From the NCBI GenBank assembly GCA_021809365.1, contig JAKBAC010000059.1, positions 1-17,832 of the forward strand: a DNA stretch of 17,832 nucleotides, given 5' to 3'. Made by a program: the position numbers and the translations under genes. This document shows, piece by piece, positions 790-17,230 of this stretch. The DNA comes from Planctomycetota bacterium. GTDB taxonomy: Bacteria; Planctomycetota; Phycisphaerae; WQYP01. Under the pieces are notes generated by a model, which worked only from the letters and a program-made list of their open reading frames with translations, was not told where the DNA came from and made no database searches. The number at the start of each line of letters is the position of its first letter. Within the stretch, counting starts at the first letter, position 1.

Positions 790-951
790 AACCGCAAAGA
801 CACAAAGAGTTTCTGAACCACGAGGAAACAGAGGATGACGAAGACGGATTTACCATAAAACGATGACGCAGAGGTTTTCGAACCACGAGGTAAGGGAGGT
901 AAACGGAGGTCGACGACAACGGAGTTACCACAAAGACACCAAGGCACAAAG
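790..951. repeat. CCGCAAAG/ACCACAAAG repeat block, left flank of GxxExxY gene 1
   Basis: Several degenerate copies of an ACC(G/A)CAAAGACACAAAG-like unit run in the purine-rich orientation on the plus strand, with variants such as ACCACGAGGAAACAGAGG between them. The same words occur in the complementary orientation on the other side of the GxxExxY gene (1379-1651), so the gene sits between inverted repeat blocks. The innermost copy (927-951) ends 8 bases from the stop codon. Confidence 0.7.
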
Positions 952-958
952 TTTGCGT

Positions 959-1354
959 TTATAGTACCACGCGGCGGATGCCGTCTTTCAATAAGGCCTC
1001 GTTAAAATTAATCAGAAATCCAAGGCGGGTACCGGTTAGCTTGAGGTAGGTCATGAGTTGTGCCGTATGTACGGGCAGCAACCCAGCGACGGATTTAATT
1101 TCAACAATTACCACTCCGGCCACAAGTAAATCCAGTCGTAGCCCAGCATCCAAGGTATTTCCCTTGTATTGCACAGGTAGAACAACCTGGGTTTGAAACT
1201 CAATTCCCTGTTGCCTGAGTTCCTCGCAAAGACAAGCCTCGTAAATACTCTCAAGCAATCCAGGCCCCAACTCCCGGTGAACAACAAACGCCGCATTGAG
1301 AACACGCGACGCCACCAACTCCGTAGGCCTCGGTATTTCAACGGGTGTTTTCAT
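959..1354 (-). CDS. GxxExxY protein (PD-(D/E)XK nuclease-like), copy 1
   Basis: A 131-residue protein from the ATG at 1354. An in-frame GTG at 1369 would add five residues, but the ATG gives an N-terminus matching copy 2 in length. The family signature GPGLLESIYEACL carries the GxxExxY motif, followed by a PD-(D/E)XK-like core, LRLDLLVAGVVIVEIKSV, with aspartate and the E-I-K triad. The ending LGFLINFNEALLKDGIRRVV is typical of the family. The fold suggests nuclease ancestry, but the biological role is unestablished. It lies between blocks of CCGCAAAG-type repeats in opposite orientations. It is clearly related to, but diverged from, copy 2 at 4425-4820, so the two are not a recent duplication. 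Family assignment is strong; function is open. Confidence 0.92.
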   Translation of the reverse strand: MKTPVEIPRPTELVASRVLNAAFVVHRELGPGLLESIYEACLCEELRQQGIEFQTQVVLPVQYKGNTLDAGLRLDLLVAGVVIVEIKSVAGLLPVHTAQLMTYLKLTGTRLGFLINFNEALLKDGIRRVVL

Positions 1355-1378
1355 ACATTGATTATCCACTCAATCGCT

Positions 1379-1651
1379 CTTTGTGTCATCGTGTGGTGAG
1401 TATTCTCGCCGTCGTAACGCTGCTTCGTCGTGCCTTTGTGTTTTGATGTCTTTGTGGTGAATATCGTCGTATCGTCCCCCCTTTGCGTTCTTTCGCTGCT
1501 TTGCGGTTGATCTTGTTAGTGTCGTCGCACCTTTGTGTCTTGGTGGTGAATCTCCTCGTCGTCGCGTCGTGCCTTTGTGTCTTGGTGTCTTCGTGTTTAA
1601 TATCGTCGTCCCGTCTTTGCGTTCTTTCGCCGCTTTGCGGTTAAGCCGATC
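1379..1651. repeat. Repeat block right of GxxExxY gene 1, with an 87-bp direct repeat
   Basis: The pyrimidine-rich complement of the left-flank words is repeated here: CTTTGTGTC, TCTTTGTGGTGAAT and CTTTGCGTTCTTTCGC followed by (T/C)GCTTTGCGGTT. Two copies of about 87 bases, 1426-1512 and 1565-1651, match along their length, each opening CGTCGTGCCTTTGTGT and closing with the TTTGCGGTT word. The material before each copy is also similar (about 1379-1425 and 1530-1564), so the block looks like an imperfect tandem duplication of roughly 140-150 bases. It fills the gap between the GxxExxY gene and the end of the glycosyltransferase gene. No gene is supported in it. Confidence 0.75.
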
Positions 1652-2915: not shown

Positions 2916-3181
2916 GGACGGTACTCCTGGTCCTACAACGCTACTGGGTTTTCCGGCGTGCCGCGGAATGTCACTGCTCCCGTACCAATTCCCTCGCTTT
3001 TTCCAGATCAGTTTCGCACCGGCAATAACGGGCGGGATGAAAATATCTTAGTGTGCCCCGGAAATAGTCGCAAGCCGCAGGTGACGCCCGCCGAACAGGA
3101 ACGGACAGGCGCTTGCCGCCATTTGCGCCAGCGGCTAACATCCAGACAATTCAAAGGATTCCAAACAACGGTGTTTATCTT

Positions 3182-4378
3182 ATGGCGGCAGGCGACAACA
3201 ACGGTACCCGGATCGCGTGGCTCATCGCCGGTGACGAGATTGCCGGCGTGGCGCAGGCGGTGCGCGGGCTAACGGAAGCAGTGCGGCCATTGGGTATCGA
3301 GCCAATAATAATAGCATTTCACGAAGGCTCTTTTTGTGACACCATGCGATCGCTGGGGTTTGCCATTCATGTTATGAATGTCGAACCGTTGCCGGCCCTC
3401 TTTGGGGGGCTGTCCAACAGGGTTCGTCTCCAATTACGCATTCATCGCTCCAGCGCGGCTATCAGGCCCCGTCTGGCTGCCACGTTGCGCCGCCTTGATG
3501 TGAAGGGCGTTCACGCCGTTTGGCGCAACCTCATGCCGCTGGCGGCCATGGCGGCGTGGGATGCCGGTATCGTCTGTTTCTGGGAAATGTCCAACATCAT
3601 GGGCCACTACCCGTTCGCCATCAACCGGCGAATGACACAACACACGCTCCAAAAATGGAATGTCACCGCCTTGGCCAACAGTAGTTACACCGCCGCGACG
3701 TTGGGAGATCGCCCCGTTAAACCCATCGTGATGTACCTGGGGGCCGATGAAAAGCGGTTTGATCCTAAGCGTGCGGACTTCGTTACGCGGGCGGACATCG
3801 GCATCCCGGCGGATGCCATAATTCTGGGTATTTTTGCGCGGATCAAGCCGCCGAAGGGGCAGGCCCAATTGCTTGAGGCCATGACCCAATTGCCCGCAGC
3901 CTATTGCAATACCCACCTGCTGCTGCTGGGCGGGCCGACCGAAGGCGGCTTTGCCGATGAGCTGCGAGCGCTGGCGGCACGGTTGCGCGCAGGTGATCGC
4001 CTGCATATCGTTGGCAGCGTGCCCGATCCGGAGCGGTATTACGGAATTGTTGATCTGGCGATAAACGCAAGAATTGATCCGGAGCCGTTTGGCCTTTCCG
4101 TGGTGGAAGCGATGATGATGGGCAAGCCGGTACTGGTTCACGCCCTGGGCGGCCCGGCGGAAACGGTGATTGACGGCGTAACCGGCTGGCATGTACATGA
4201 GCCGACGGTGGAAGGATTCAAGGCCGGGCTGCTGCGGGCTTTGGCAGACCGCGAGAAATGGCCGGCGATGGGTGCCGCGGCGCGGGCAAGAGCACTGGAA
4301 CATTTCAGTTTGTCGAGGCAGGCCAGGCAGTACGTGGAAATCGTGCGCAAACGCCTCAGCGGCGCTGCCACTCAATGA
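3182..4378 (+). CDS. Glycosyltransferase family 4
   Basis: A 398-residue GT-B enzyme. The frame is open from a TTG at 3113, but the fold starts at RIAWLIAGDEIAGVAQAV, so I prefer the ATG at 3182. Neither start has a convincing ribosome-binding site. The C-terminal domain shows the donor-binding features of GT4: ILGIFARIKPPKGQAQLLEA, LLLLGGPTEGG, then DPEPFGLSVVEAMMMGKPV with an intact E-x7-E, and GGPAETVIDGVTGWHV. It would add a sugar to a membrane-linked glycan in the cytoplasm. It is followed at 12 bases by the inverted-repeat cassette carrying GxxExxY copy 2, then two more glycosyltransferases on the same strand, so the cassette probably split an operon. Substrate unknown. Confidence 0.9.
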   Translation: MAAGDNNGTRIAWLIAGDEIAGVAQAVRGLTEAVRPLGIEPIIIAFHEGSFCDTMRSLGFAIHVMNVEPLPALFGGLSNRVRLQLRIHRSSAAIRPRLAATLRRLDVKGVHAVWRNLMPLAAMAAWDAGIVCFWEMSNIMGHYPFAINRRMTQHTLQKWNVTALANSSYTAATLGDRPVKPIVMYLGADEKRFDPKRADFVTRADIGIPADAIILGIFARIKPPKGQAQLLEAMTQLPAAYCNTHLLLLGGPTEGGFADELRALAARLRAGDRLHIVGSVPDPERYYGIVDLAINARIDPEPFGLSVVEAMMMGKPVLVHALGGPAETVIDGVTGWHVHEPTVEGFKAGLLRALADREKWPAMGAAARARALEHFSLSRQARQYVEIVRKRLSGAATQ

Positions 4379-4389
4379 GGCCATAGCAC

Positions 4390-4860
4390 GGGGTTAACCG
4401 CAAAGAAGCAAAGGACGCAAAGAAATGATTTTGGAGCCAAGCGCGGAAGCGAATCACCTGGCCAATCTGGTGATCGGTGCGGCCATTGAAGTGCATCGAC
4501 AACTTGGGCCCGGCTACTTAGAAAGTGTTTATGAAGAATGTCTCGGGATCGAACTGACGGAAAGAGGAATTAAGTTTCAGCGACAGCATCCGATTTCCGT
4601 GCGATATAAGGGGCACATTGCGGGTGAGTCGCGCCTGGATTTACTCGTCGGGAAGATTCTAATTGTCGAATTAAAGGCGGTGGATGCATTAGCCCCCATC
4701 CACACAGCGCAAGTCATTTCGTATTTGAAGGCAACAGAATTAAGGCTAGGCCTGCTGATAAATTTTAACACAGTGCTGCTACGGAATGGGATTGATCGCA
4801 TTGTGTTGGGAAATGTATAGCTCGCCCTTTGCGTTCTTTCGCTACTTTGCGGTTAACCCC
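4390..4860 (+). mobile_element. Candidate miniature cassette: GxxExxY gene between terminal inverted repeats
   Basis: Left end 4390-4422 and right end 4827-4860 are inverted copies. The outer 16 bases (GGGGTTAACCGCAAAG) match perfectly, and the inner part of about 17 bases (A/T-AGC-(G)AAAG-ACGCAAAG) matches with a few changes. Between them is just one gene, whose ATG is two bases after the left repeat and whose stop is six bases before the right repeat. No transposase is encoded and I see no clear target duplication (flanks AGCACG and CGCGTC). That this moves as a unit is inference from the architecture. Confidence 0.55.
4425..4820 (+). CDS. GxxExxY protein (PD-(D/E)XK nuclease-like), copy 2
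   Basis: A 131-residue protein. The family signature is GPGYLESVYEECL (about 28-40). The nuclease-like core is SRLDLLVGKILIVELKAVDA, with the aspartate and E-L-K residues of a PD-(D/E)XK site. Then come HTAQVISYLKATELRLGLLI and NFNTVLLRNGIDRIVL. The ATG follows directly after the repeat GGACGCAAAGAA, which may double as its ribosome-binding region (an AAAGGA lies further upstream). Biochemical function of the family is not established. The gene has no obvious part in polysaccharide synthesis and appears to be an insertion between two glycosyltransferase genes. It shares the whole architecture with copy 1 but differs at many positions. Confidence 0.93.
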   Translation: MILEPSAEANHLANLVIGAAIEVHRQLGPGYLESVYEECLGIELTERGIKFQRQHPISVRYKGHIAGESRLDLLVGKILIVELKAVDALAPIHTAQVISYLKATELRLGLLINFNTVLLRNGIDRIVLGNV

Positions 4861-4928: not shown

Positions 4929-6269
4929 ATGGAAATTCTTTTTGGAGTGGTAGATACATTGGTTAGTGATTCCGCAGAGCCTAAGGATTTCCAAGCGCCG
5001 GCTGCGCCGCGCCCGCGTGTGATCTGGCTGCAAAATAGTGCTGACCATTATTTCGTTCAGATGCTTGATGCCCTCAACTCTCAGGGCAGTGACGTGGAAT
5101 ACTTTGGCGTATTTTTATGCCCGCCGCCGCAGGCCAATGCGTTATACCAGACCCCCAAACATTCACCCTACATTTTCCTTGGTAACCCGGCCACCCCTCC
5201 CGGCCCGGCCAACCATCGGCACCTGGGTAAAGAGGCCAGAGAATATATTAAAAAGCTGGATTTTTCCGCCGCCATTGTGGGAGGCTATGATTCACGTTTT
5301 AAGTTGTGGGTATTACGGCATTGCCAAACACGCGGCATTCCCACCGCACTGTTTGCCGACAGCAACATCCGCGCTGAGCGGGGGCGAAAACTCAAAAAGC
5401 GGCTATGGCGGTCAGCGAAACGCTACTTCCTGCACAGTGTAATCCAACGGCTAGATCGAATAATGCCGATGAACGGTAGCGGCGTAGCGTACTGGAGGTA
5501 CTACGATGCGTCGCCGGACAGGATTGTCTGTAGCACCAGCTTTTGTGCGGTGGATGTTCCGGCGGCGCAGGCGGTAAACCGCGAGGAACTTTTTGCCCGC
5601 TACCAACTGGATCCAAAATGCAAACTTATTTTTACCGCCGCCCGATTAGTCCCGGCCAAGGCCCTGCACCTGATGGTGGAAGCATTTACAAAATCCGGGC
5701 TGGCCGAAAAGGGCTGGGTGTGGGCGGTGGCCGGTGCCGGGCCGCTGCGGCAACAACTCGAACACCAGACGGAAAAACTTAATGGTAATGCGATCCGATT
5801 TCTCGGCGCGGTGGCCCCAGTGGATATTCCGAGCCTGATGGCCCAAAGTCAATTGTTTGTTTTGCCCTCCATCTATGAACCGCACGGAATTGTGGTTACG
5901 GAAGCCATGGCGGTTGGCACGCCGGTGATCACCGGTGATTGCTGCGGTGCGGCGCGGGATTTAGTGCGGTCAGGCCGCACGGGCTGGTTATTCAAGACCG
6001 GTGATGCGGCAAGCCTGCAAACGGTGTTGGCAACAGCCACCCGTGATGCCGGACAGTTGGCGGCTATGCGTGGGGCGTGCAGCGAAGCGTTTCGAAAGTG
6101 GTATGGCCAATATGGGCCGGTGCAGGTGGTGCCTAAACTGGCAGCCGATCTTATCGCCGGGAAAAAGGAGTTTCCGGCGCCCCGTGGCCGCGGAAACTGG
6201 CTGCCAATTTTTGTCGTGGTGGCATCGGCTATACTTGCGGTAATTGCCGCATTGCTCATGGACCAGTGA
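4929..6269 (+). CDS. Glycosyltransferase family 4 with C-terminal membrane anchor
   Basis: A 446-residue protein. After about 30 residues of leader the GT-B N-domain begins RVIWLQNSADHYFVQML. The C-domain has CKLIFTAARLVPAKALHLMV, VWAVAGAGPLRQQLE, then PSIYEPHGIVVTEAMAVGTP, in which the E-x7-E motif is intact, and DLVRSGRTGWLFKTGDA. The last 24 residues, NWLPIFVVVASAILAVIAAL followed by LMDQ, form a single hydrophobic helix, preceded by a basic stretch (GKKEFPAPRGRG). This predicts a tail-anchored enzyme with its catalytic part in the cytoplasm, an uncommon layout for GT4. The ATG at 4929 has no good ribosome-binding site; I kept it as the first ATG. It follows the GxxExxY cassette. Sugar specificity unknown. 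Confidence 0.88.
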   Translation: MEILFGVVDTLVSDSAEPKDFQAPAAPRPRVIWLQNSADHYFVQMLDALNSQGSDVEYFGVFLCPPPQANALYQTPKHSPYIFLGNPATPPGPANHRHLGKEAREYIKKLDFSAAIVGGYDSRFKLWVLRHCQTRGIPTALFADSNIRAERGRKLKKRLWRSAKRYFLHSVIQRLDRIMPMNGSGVAYWRYYDASPDRIVCSTSFCAVDVPAAQAVNREELFARYQLDPKCKLIFTAARLVPAKALHLMVEAFTKSGLAEKGWVWAVAGAGPLRQQLEHQTEKLNGNAIRFLGAVAPVDIPSLMAQSQLFVLPSIYEPHGIVVTEAMAVGTPVITGDCCGAARDLVRSGRTGWLFKTGDAASLQTVLATATRDAGQLAAMRGACSEAFRKWYGQYGPVQVVPKLAADLIAGKKEFPAPRGRGNWLPIFVVVASAILAVIAALLMDQ

Positions 6270-16038: not shown

Positions 16039-16377
16039 TTATCGATCAATCAGGTTTTGTACCTCGGTTAGTAATTTTGGTAATGCGTGGATAATAACCT
16101 TCCAGACATGCGTATTGTCTATCAGCGAATAACCATGTGAAAGCACGTTACGGAATGCCACGATCCTATCCGCATCCGTGATCAACGCGGCGGTCGCCGG
16201 ATCAACCTTCCGAAGGTGATCCACGGCCTCGCCGATGATTTCAAAATTTCGCTCAACGGCGTGGCGGAGAAGCCGATTGCTTTCATAGCTTTCAAAAGTT
16301 GCGTCCTCTGTCTGCTCCAGGATAAATGATGCGGCATCCGCGACATCTTTTACGAGTTTGAGTGCCCTATCCTGCAT
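16039..16377 (-). CDS. hepT: HepT-like HEPN ribonuclease toxin
   Basis: A 112-residue all-helical protein of the HepT (former DUF86) family. The catalytic RX4HXY motif is complete, R76-NVLS-H81-G-Y83, in the context RIVAFRNVLSHGYSLID. The conserved mid-block NFEIIGEAVDHLRK is also present. Members of this family are RNases that inhibit growth when free. In characterised systems the partner MntA adds AMP to the tyrosine of this motif to silence it. The gene overlaps the end of mntA by 11 bases, antitoxin first, the standard order. All motif residues are present, so it should be functional. Confidence 0.93.
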   Translation of the reverse strand: MQDRALKLVKDVADAASFILEQTEDATFESYESNRLLRHAVERNFEIIGEAVDHLRKVDPATAALITDADRIVAFRNVLSHGYSLIDNTHVWKVIIHALPKLLTEVQNLIDR

Positions 16378-16681
16378 AGATCAATTCCCGTGATTGATCC
16401 ACCTGTTTCCAAAACAGATCGCTGGTAATCGCCCCCGCCATGACCAGATCCACAGGTTTATTCAGTGTCTGCCGCAATTCATCAAGGAGACTGAAATATT
16501 CCGCCAGCCAGGGGCCCAAATCGGCATCCGGTGGATATGTCACAAGAAAGTCAATGTCACTGCCGCGGTCATTAAACTTATCTCCCGACGCCGCTGATCC
16601 AAATATTTCCAGCCGCGCCACGCGGTGCCTGCGGCACGCGCTGTGAATGGCATCAATGCGATTGGCAACAAGCGGAATCAT
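16367..16681 (-). CDS. mntA: MntA-like minimal nucleotidyltransferase antitoxin
   Basis: A 104-residue nucleotidyltransferase. The active-site block is LEIFGSAASGDKFNDRGSDI followed by DF, giving the GS and D42-x-D44 residues. The spacing between GS and the first aspartate is 12, slightly longer than the common 10 or 11. The third carboxylate is in KPVDLVM (D78). In characterised pairs this enzyme transfers AMP from ATP to the HepT tyrosine, neutralising the toxin. It is the first gene of the two-gene unit and probably co-translated with hepT through the 11-base overlap. The ATG at 16681 is followed by a normal N-terminus. The module lies outside the glycan locus and is likely an independent acquisition. 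Confidence 0.92.
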   Translation of the reverse strand: MIPLVANRIDAIHSACRRHRVARLEIFGSAASGDKFNDRGSDIDFLVTYPPDADLGPWLAEYFSLLDELRQTLNKPVDLVMAGAITSDLFWKQVDQSRELIYAG

Positions 16682-16803: not shown

Positions 16804-16940
16804 ATTCACCACAAAGACACGACGACACGAAGGGACGACGACGGGGTGACGATCGGCCACAGAAGGCGCAGGTGCCACGGAGTTGGGCCAAAAGCCACGT
16901 TAAATTTTTCTCTCTGTGTACTCCGTGATCTTGTGGCTCA
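16804..16940. repeat. CACAAAG-type inverted repeat pair without a gene inside
   Basis: The left part reads TTCACCACAAAGACACGACG followed by ACACGAAGG. The right part (about 16908-16940) reads TCTCTCTGTGTACTCCGTGA then TCTTGTGGCTC, roughly its complement. A second half-site, CCACGGAGTTGG, lies between. The wording matches the repeats around GxxExxY copy 1, but the interior of about 75 bases has no room for such a gene. Confidence 0.55.
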
Positions 16941-17034: not shown

Positions 17035-17209
17035 CCTGTCTCCTGTCTCCTGTCTCCTGCCTCCTGCCTCCTGTCTCCTGCCTCCTGTCTCCTGTCTCCT
17101 GCCTCCTGTCTCCTGCCTCCTGTCTCCTGCCTCCTGTCTCCTGCCTCCTGAAAACTGAACACTGAACACTTGACACTGTTGTTCGTTGCTCGTTACTCGT
17201 TGTTCGTTG
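17035..17209. repeat. 175-bp array of 25 heptamers in constant phase
   Basis: Sixteen units of CCTG(T/C)CT run from 17035 to 17146. The 7-base frame then continues without a break through CCTGAAA, ACTGAAC, ACTGAAC, ACTTGAC and ACTGTTG. It finishes as TTCGTTG, CTCGTTA, CTCGTTG, TTCGTTG. Within the first part, T and C at position 5 alternate irregularly. Heptamer arrays are known in cyanobacteria (STRR repeats); what this one does is unknown. It is not a CRISPR array, having no spacers. Confidence 0.9.
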
Positions 17210-17211
17210 AA

Positions 17212-17230
17212 ATTGGCCTCTGTGGCCAAT
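17212..17230. promoter_or_regulatory. GGCC hairpin upstream of the DUF104 gene
   Basis: ATTGGCC-TCTGT-GGCCAAT forms a perfect 7-base-pair stem, followed by CGCCC. A related word, GATTGGCCA then GGGCGAT, occurs at 17262-17283 next to the candidate promoter. It could be an operator for the toxin-antitoxin unit, since such units usually repress themselves, or simply a hairpin. Inference only. Confidence 0.35.

Follow-up and report, generated by a model that had tools for sequence, protein, structure and literature searches.

A small gene of the GxxExxY family and the inverted arrays of short tandem units that bound it evolve as one unit, and we consider the best explanation, with a probability of about 60%, to be a one-gene selfish element whose nuclease would act on its own arms and whose non-autonomous kin would be short gene-less palindromes. 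In our window (the whole stretch of DNA that was analysed, 17,832 nucleotides from a Planctomycetota bacterium) the cassette occupies positions 4390..4860. The left arm (4390..4422, + strand) holds three tandem units of 8-9 bp of the CCGCAAAG type, the gene (4425..4820, +) encodes 131 amino acids with a predicted PD-(D/E)XK nuclease fold, and the right arm (4827..4860, - strand) carries the same unit type facing inward; with a one-base indel the arms read as three units each, CCGCAAAG / AGCAAAGG or AGCGAAAG / ACGCAAAG. The inverted repeats of about 33 bases in the original prediction were confirmed in the letters, as were the ATG two bases past the left arm and the stop codon six bases before the right arm, and the outer 16 bases, described there as perfectly matched, are exact on both strands (4390-4405, +, and 4845-4860, -). 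A repeat search delimited 26 nt of inverted repeat, 88% complementary, at 4390-4415/4835-4860 with 419 nt between. The inner end of the left arm appears purine-rich and seems to be placed as a ribosome-binding site would be. The flanking co-oriented genes are, as had been proposed, glycosyltransferases, both group-1 by profile match: one at 3113..4378 (+), which ends 11 bp ahead of the left arm, and one at 4929..6269 (+), whose organism-named relatives are Phycisphaerae/Phycisphaerales and point to a probable origin of the window in the Phycisphaerae. The cassette has the terminal inverted repeats of classical IS elements and MITEs, and no direct repeat was found by eye at its outer ends.

When the 16-base end was searched for in the window with up to 3 mismatches, it matched four times against 0.23 expected, a count reached in none of 200 shuffles. 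A chance repeat in a low-complexity region therefore has practically no probability, being refuted by these shuffles and by the recurrence of the arrays across phyla. The paired ends at 4390..4860 were as originally described; that description had missed the matches at 714 and 1633, which lie around a second GxxExxY gene (959..1369, -; 136 amino acids) that shares 52% identity with the first. Past the stop codon of this gene several arrays, of CGCAAAG, CACGAGG and CACAAAG types by eye, occupy 790..951 (+), and on its start-codon side about six inward-facing arrays (counted by eye) occupy 1375..1648 (-), which we interpret as nested or amplified cassette ends. The window also contains a short gene-less palindrome of the same kind at 16857..16939 (GCCACAGAAGGCGCAGGTGCCACGGAG ... 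CTCTCTGTGTACTCCGTGATCTTGTGGC, recognised by eye and unscored). Other features of the window include an IS1380-like transposase fragment at 2-577, which runs off the window start and, at 164.5 bits, stayed below its cut-off of 180 (the Pfam match, DDE_Tnp_1_4, was above the one set for it), and a MNT/HepT-like pair (nucleotidyltransferase plus HepT-like) at 16039-16681, below the NCBIfam cut-offs and above those of Pfam. No Rfam match was found in the window at gathering thresholds.

The first window protein matched TIGR04256 (GxxExxY) with 147 bits (cut-off 35) and PF13366 (PDDEXK_3) with 147.1 bits (cut-off 22), and the second reached 145.2 and 144.1 bits, respectively. Pfam and NCBIfam gave only these two families on both copies, with no Y1 (HUH) transposase match, in agreement with the earlier reading that the cassette 4390..4860 encodes no transposase; since a known transposase is absent from the full-length element, it is not a classical IS. 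The first protein holds H24, E33, D72, E82, K84, Q96 and Y100, and 78 of 82 rows (the best 80 of 475 relatives plus the window copies) retain the catalytic set E33, D72, E82, K84, Q96 and Y100. The D..ExK..QxxxY residues together with the predicted fold correspond to the RecB/Cas4/lambda-exo-like pattern, and we predict that GxxExxY is a PD-(D/E)XK nuclease of the RecB/Cas4/lambda-exonuclease type whose active site is intact. Foldseek against solved structures gave a best match of only E 1.2e-3, and no solved-structure relative was found by sequence at E<=1. Matches to the first window protein were present in 8 of 72,556 plasmid records and to the second in 0 of 50,697 phage records; on these counts a plasmid or a phage was rejected as the vehicle.

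To describe the arms in other genomes we used the best 80 of 475 relatives of the window protein, from many phyla, 75 of which had 150 bp on both sides, and defined an array as two units of C[AG]CN[AG]AG (CRCNRAG) with a spacer of 0-3, inward-facing and at most 150 bp from the gene. Paired inverted arrays were present at 48 of these 75 testable loci, whereas 2970 positions drawn at random from them gave 3 and a mirrored-orientation control gave 4/75; by side, arrays were found upstream at 52 loci and downstream at 54. The pairing of arms and gene spans more than 10 phyla among these best 80 relatives. The strict motif missed 27 of the 75 loci, 13 of which have clear matched arms by eye (L013, L015, L032, L043, L046, L047, L048, L049, L065, L070, L073, L076 and L079), most of them built from variant units, CACAGATT and CAGGAAA being examples; at the remaining 14/75, clearly matched arms were not readable by eye. 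Of the 535 distances of 7-14 bp counted between unit starts, 505 were of 8 bp (212) or 9 bp (293). In a relaxed test, the similarity of a locus's own arms exceeded the 95th percentile of cross pairs at 41 of the 75 loci. A control comparing direct with inverted arm similarity, which is flawed because many loci carry arrays on both strands, gave 0/75 own scores above the 95th percentile (103).

The type of arm follows the protein. Two or more units on each side were present in 54 of 82 rows (the best 80 of 475 relatives and both window copies), and the left and right main unit types were the same in 49 of these, whereas 2000 shuffles gave a mean of 13.9 and a maximum of 24. When mapped on the protein tree, which is built on few columns and leaves many forks open, unit type changed 14 times, as against a mean of 28.9 and a least value of 23 in 300 shuffles of the labels; shuffling within phyla, with the six rows lacking a stated phylum pooled as one group, gave a mean of 25.6 changes and a least value of 20. 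Repeat divergence hence follows gene divergence. Additionally, the copies within one genome can have arms of unlike types, each matched internally by eye, as in several copies of G009 and G032. These observations bear on the view that the cassette is mobile but its ends are recognised by another enzyme, GxxExxY being a cargo such as a persistence nuclease or a defence gene. The match of arm type to the GxxExxY tree and the differing, internally matched arms within one genome argue against it, and so does the content of the neighbouring inward-facing pairs of 300-3000 bp at these 80 loci, all of which contain GxxExxY save a 1.6-kb pair with a sigma-factor-like ORF at L027 that looks like two separate elements; outside these loci, a 497-bp pair at L246 had no GxxExxY match and read by eye as clustered repeats only.

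The cargo view draws on genomes that have arrays and no detected GxxExxY gene. In 199 Planctomycetota genomes, GxxExxY was matched in 96 (95 above the cut-off), and the array pattern occurred 1901 times in these 96 carriers and 241 times in the 103 non-carriers, while a reversed-pattern control gave 86 and 61, respectively. At least 5 arrays were present in 54/96 carriers versus 6/103 non-carriers (Fisher p 1.3e-15, uncorrected for kinship), and 29 of the 96 carriers had at most one. The repeat is therefore associated with GxxExxY genomes and not spread without regard to the gene. The non-carriers with at least 9 arrays were G029, G059, G071, G093, G111 and G134 (several of the surveyed genomes are fragmented), among them G029 with 60, G071 with 64 and G059 with 17. 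G029, with 60 to 69 arrays depending on which of two patterns is used and no GxxExxY match, carries palindromes of about 100-130 bp whose ends reach further outward (CAGATGAACCGCC...) and which are apparently orphaned. We regard cargo as an unlikely role; of the two possibilities left side by side in the original prediction, an own nuclease and a passenger, the first is favoured, though not settled, by the way in which arms and protein vary together.

Besides full elements, the best 80 of 475 loci contain 59 inward-facing pairs less than 300 bp apart with no gene between (the identical L010 and L011 are both counted). Among the first 100 of 210 places listed in G205, neighbours within 2 kb were predominantly + - (30), followed by - + (6), - - (2) and + + (1). 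One palindrome, at L017, is an internal deletion of a full copy about 130 bp away and fuses 22 bp of the 5' side with 35 bp of the 3' side at an overlap of 4 bp, and at L062 two palindromes retain the gene end. Only 3 of 50 testable short elements (at 2 loci) matched the gene of their own locus at E<1e-3, a lenient limit that also gave 17 cross-locus hits, so that most short forms are without a recognisable gene remnant. At L031, 8 of 9 short elements lie inside two long open frames (2 and 6) in one common internal frame, yielding peptides such as NHKDTKAQRTEDSKESLCLRAFVV; one of these two palindrome-bearing ORFs (L031:3210-9604) is methylase-like, having EFPQVF...GFDVVLGN, which we take to be a methylase-like motif. 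At L010 (5421-5807), L071 (4368-5649) and L078 (4730-6243), palindromes are repeated in tandem together with the spacer DNA between them.

Occupied and empty sites were found in three lineages. A Pelosinus site is empty in L106 and L107, full in L035, L102, L103 and L104 and occupied by a gene-less short element in L105, and its full elements are of three unit subtypes, each matched across the arms by eye. The pyrB|pyrC site of Zetaproteobacteria (the family of G011; genes named by eye) reads TGA-GT-ATG with nothing between in L155, L157 and L160, is full in G011, G291 and G298 and short in G312 and G262, the remaining genomes having array-free spacers or only one side seen. A Thioalkalivibrio site is free of arrays in L087, L089 and L095 and carries a full element in L044 and L082 and a partial gene in L084, with arrays or longer spacers in others. 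The gene is thus not fixed at its place in all relatives in any of these groups; as the relatives compared are at about 67-87% DNA identity, loss instead of gain is possible at each single site. For the window site the nearest relatives offer no empty counterpart, as glycosyltransferase synteny is lost in them: the pieces examined around three relatives of glycosyltransferase GT_B at 66-68% identity (L178, L179 and L180) had no match to GT_A and no strict-motif array within 420 bp upstream, and a CACAAAG-type remnant was seen by eye upstream in L180. Together, the arm-gene pairing in more than ten phyla, the occupied and empty sites and the gene-less derivatives support the mobile inverted-repeat unit that had been proposed. 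GxxExxY elements were also seen at apparent trp operon junctions in several proteobacteria (L054, L057, L068; L056, L058; genes named by eye), and G011 has an apparent tandem duplication of pyrB-end / element / pyrC-start (L059:4749-5398) with one short and one full element and a partial pyrC start between them.

Elements are placed in a regular way with respect to their neighbours. With a simple ORF caller, both neighbours run in the direction of the element at 49 of 61 loci and both run against it at 3. The median distance is 12 bp from the preceding sense stop to the start of the left array (34 loci) and 20.5 bp from the end of the right array to the following sense start (32 loci; distances above 400 bp were excluded in both). 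A stop codon can also come from the element, through its tip consensus T(G/T)AACC. Since most elements lie between co-directional genes and the palindromes could form hairpins, we considered an ordinary, immobile gene with transcription-terminator or mRNA-stability hairpins, a very improbable account in view of the presence and absence at three loci in three lineages, the multicopy gene-less forms and the matched subtypes. The empty sites refute it unless all of them are losses. Furthermore, the protein tree (76 rows, 15 phyla) has 33 changes of phylum, compared with 52 for shuffled labels and 14 for one change per further phylum.

No target duplication was clearly found at the element ends, where duplications of 2-5 bp could escape. 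Direct repeats of at least 6 bp bounded 3/45 full elements (6.3% of cross pairs) and 6/57 short elements (5.6% of cross pairs), a slight excess confined to the short copies, some of which are tandem arrays; the mean longest direct repeat was 3.76 for full elements against 3.71 for cross pairs and 4.16 against 3.57 for short ones. Two copies at L039 do not differ in the first 331 bp counted from the left tip and are 81% identical over the 146 columns from there to the right tip, with unlike left flanks (16/48) and weakly similar right flanks (29/58), a pattern that we read as a recent copy with gene-conversion-like mosaicism. In G312, a piece of an older right arm is apparently kept beside the new short element. 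The mosaic, this older piece, the lack of a clear target duplication and the unlike subtypes at the one Pelosinus site in different species are also points in favour of a homing-type spread, which overlaps our best explanation: the nuclease would cut related palindromes or gene junctions and host recombination would copy the element by gene conversion, so that insertion would be repair and not transposition. It is possible though rather doubtful; against it, no recognisable unit was seen by eye at the empty TGA-GT-ATG sites of L155 and L157. In the selfish one-gene element that we prefer, the GxxExxY protein would recognise the units of its own arms or subtype and cut or nick there, and we infer that the nuclease may drive the movement. 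Repair or replication, and not a staggered cut-and-paste, would then bring a copy into gene junctions. The mosaic copies, the different subtypes at one site, the deletion with a 4-bp overlap and the absence of a clear target duplication agree with this. The short palindromes would be non-autonomous kin, moved in trans or produced by internal deletion.

As a control we examined genes of the S23 four-helix-bundle family (TIGR02436), taking 30 of 84 matches in 24 genomes where GxxExxY or many arrays occur. Paired CRCNRAG arrays were found at none of these 30 loci and a single array at 2. The S23 loci (L197-L226) were often bounded by other inverted arrays with tandem units of about 7 bp, for instance AGGCAATAGGCATT, GGCTGAAGGCTGAAG and GGGGTTTAGGGTGT, and in the relaxed test their arms exceeded the cross-pair 95th percentile at 18 of 25 loci. 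In our window, the tandem heptamers CCTGTCT/CCTGCCT and runs of GAACACT and TTGTTCG at 17035-17220 resemble the surroundings of S23 genes. S23 with its own unit arrays is possibly a second, parallel family of a small gene with matching arms, and such a gene with self-matching array arms may accordingly be a general design.

Several known systems are related to these elements in part. RAYTs are Y1 HUH proteins and the IS200/REP group is placed with the HuH endonucleases; the GxxExxY partner differs in its predicted PD-(D/E)XK fold, the arms here consist of tandem 8-9 bp units and the gene is inside the element. In REPIN/RAYT systems, short repeats form inverted doublets that are spread between genes, and copies of them also flank a partner gene (PMC3116915); the elements found here are alike in having such doublets and a linked gene with the repeat on both sides. 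REPs of SBW25 are mostly extragenic, while in one of our genomes (at L031) copies are in frame. Bacterial MITEs and Rickettsia palindromic elements are, like the GxxExxY palindromes, short inverted-repeat elements. MITEs usually show target duplications, and the GxxExxY palindromes differ in that such duplications were not clearly detected and in having a likely autonomous partner that can be named. Rickettsia palindromic elements insert in frame in genes (PMC10969869), a likeness to the 8 palindromes of L031. Free-standing and intron homing endonucleases resemble GxxExxY as small, possibly selfish nuclease genes with occupied and empty alleles. I-SspI is a PD-(D/E)XK homing endonuclease. GxxExxY elements differ from them by their terminal inverted arrays, gene-less copies and gene-junction sites, and no intron or intein was seen. 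Compared with RecB, Cas4 and lambda exonuclease, GxxExxY is only about 130 amino acids long, has no further domain and stands in a multicopy mobile context. The Rpn / YhgA-like nucleases (PF04754), a Pfam family other than the PF13366 of GxxExxY, also have the PD-(D/E)XK fold, and we know of none bounded by unit arrays. Rpn proteins take their family name from transposases and have been connected with horizontal transfer that is independent of RecA (PMC5350276); they are also reported as anti-phage toxin-antitoxin systems (PMC10327210). In open-licence PMC literature we found no description of such GxxExxY elements, and neither the PDDEXK_3 name nor six unit sequences occur there; GxxExxY is mentioned incidentally in two papers, PF13366/TIGR04256 occurs in one, and the one paper that combines MITEs with PDDEXK looks unrelated.

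Lastly, we tentatively put forward, at somewhat less than even odds, that these elements are a new class of prokaryotic mobile element, in which a RecB/Cas4-like nuclease would read self-carried arms of tandem units, insert without target duplication after operon stop codons in sense and drive families of palindromes, some of them in frame, with the S23 arrays as a parallel and perhaps the whole as a general design. GxxExxY is an abundant family (at least 7999 candidates) with no function assigned in our sources, and its link to its own arms and palindromes offers a testable job for it. If this is true, many repeats in little-studied phyla would be explained, a class of nucleases would join the enzymes that move minimal elements, and odd peptide stretches in predicted proteins (for instance NHKGTETQR...LWLRAFVV) would be read-through palindromes.
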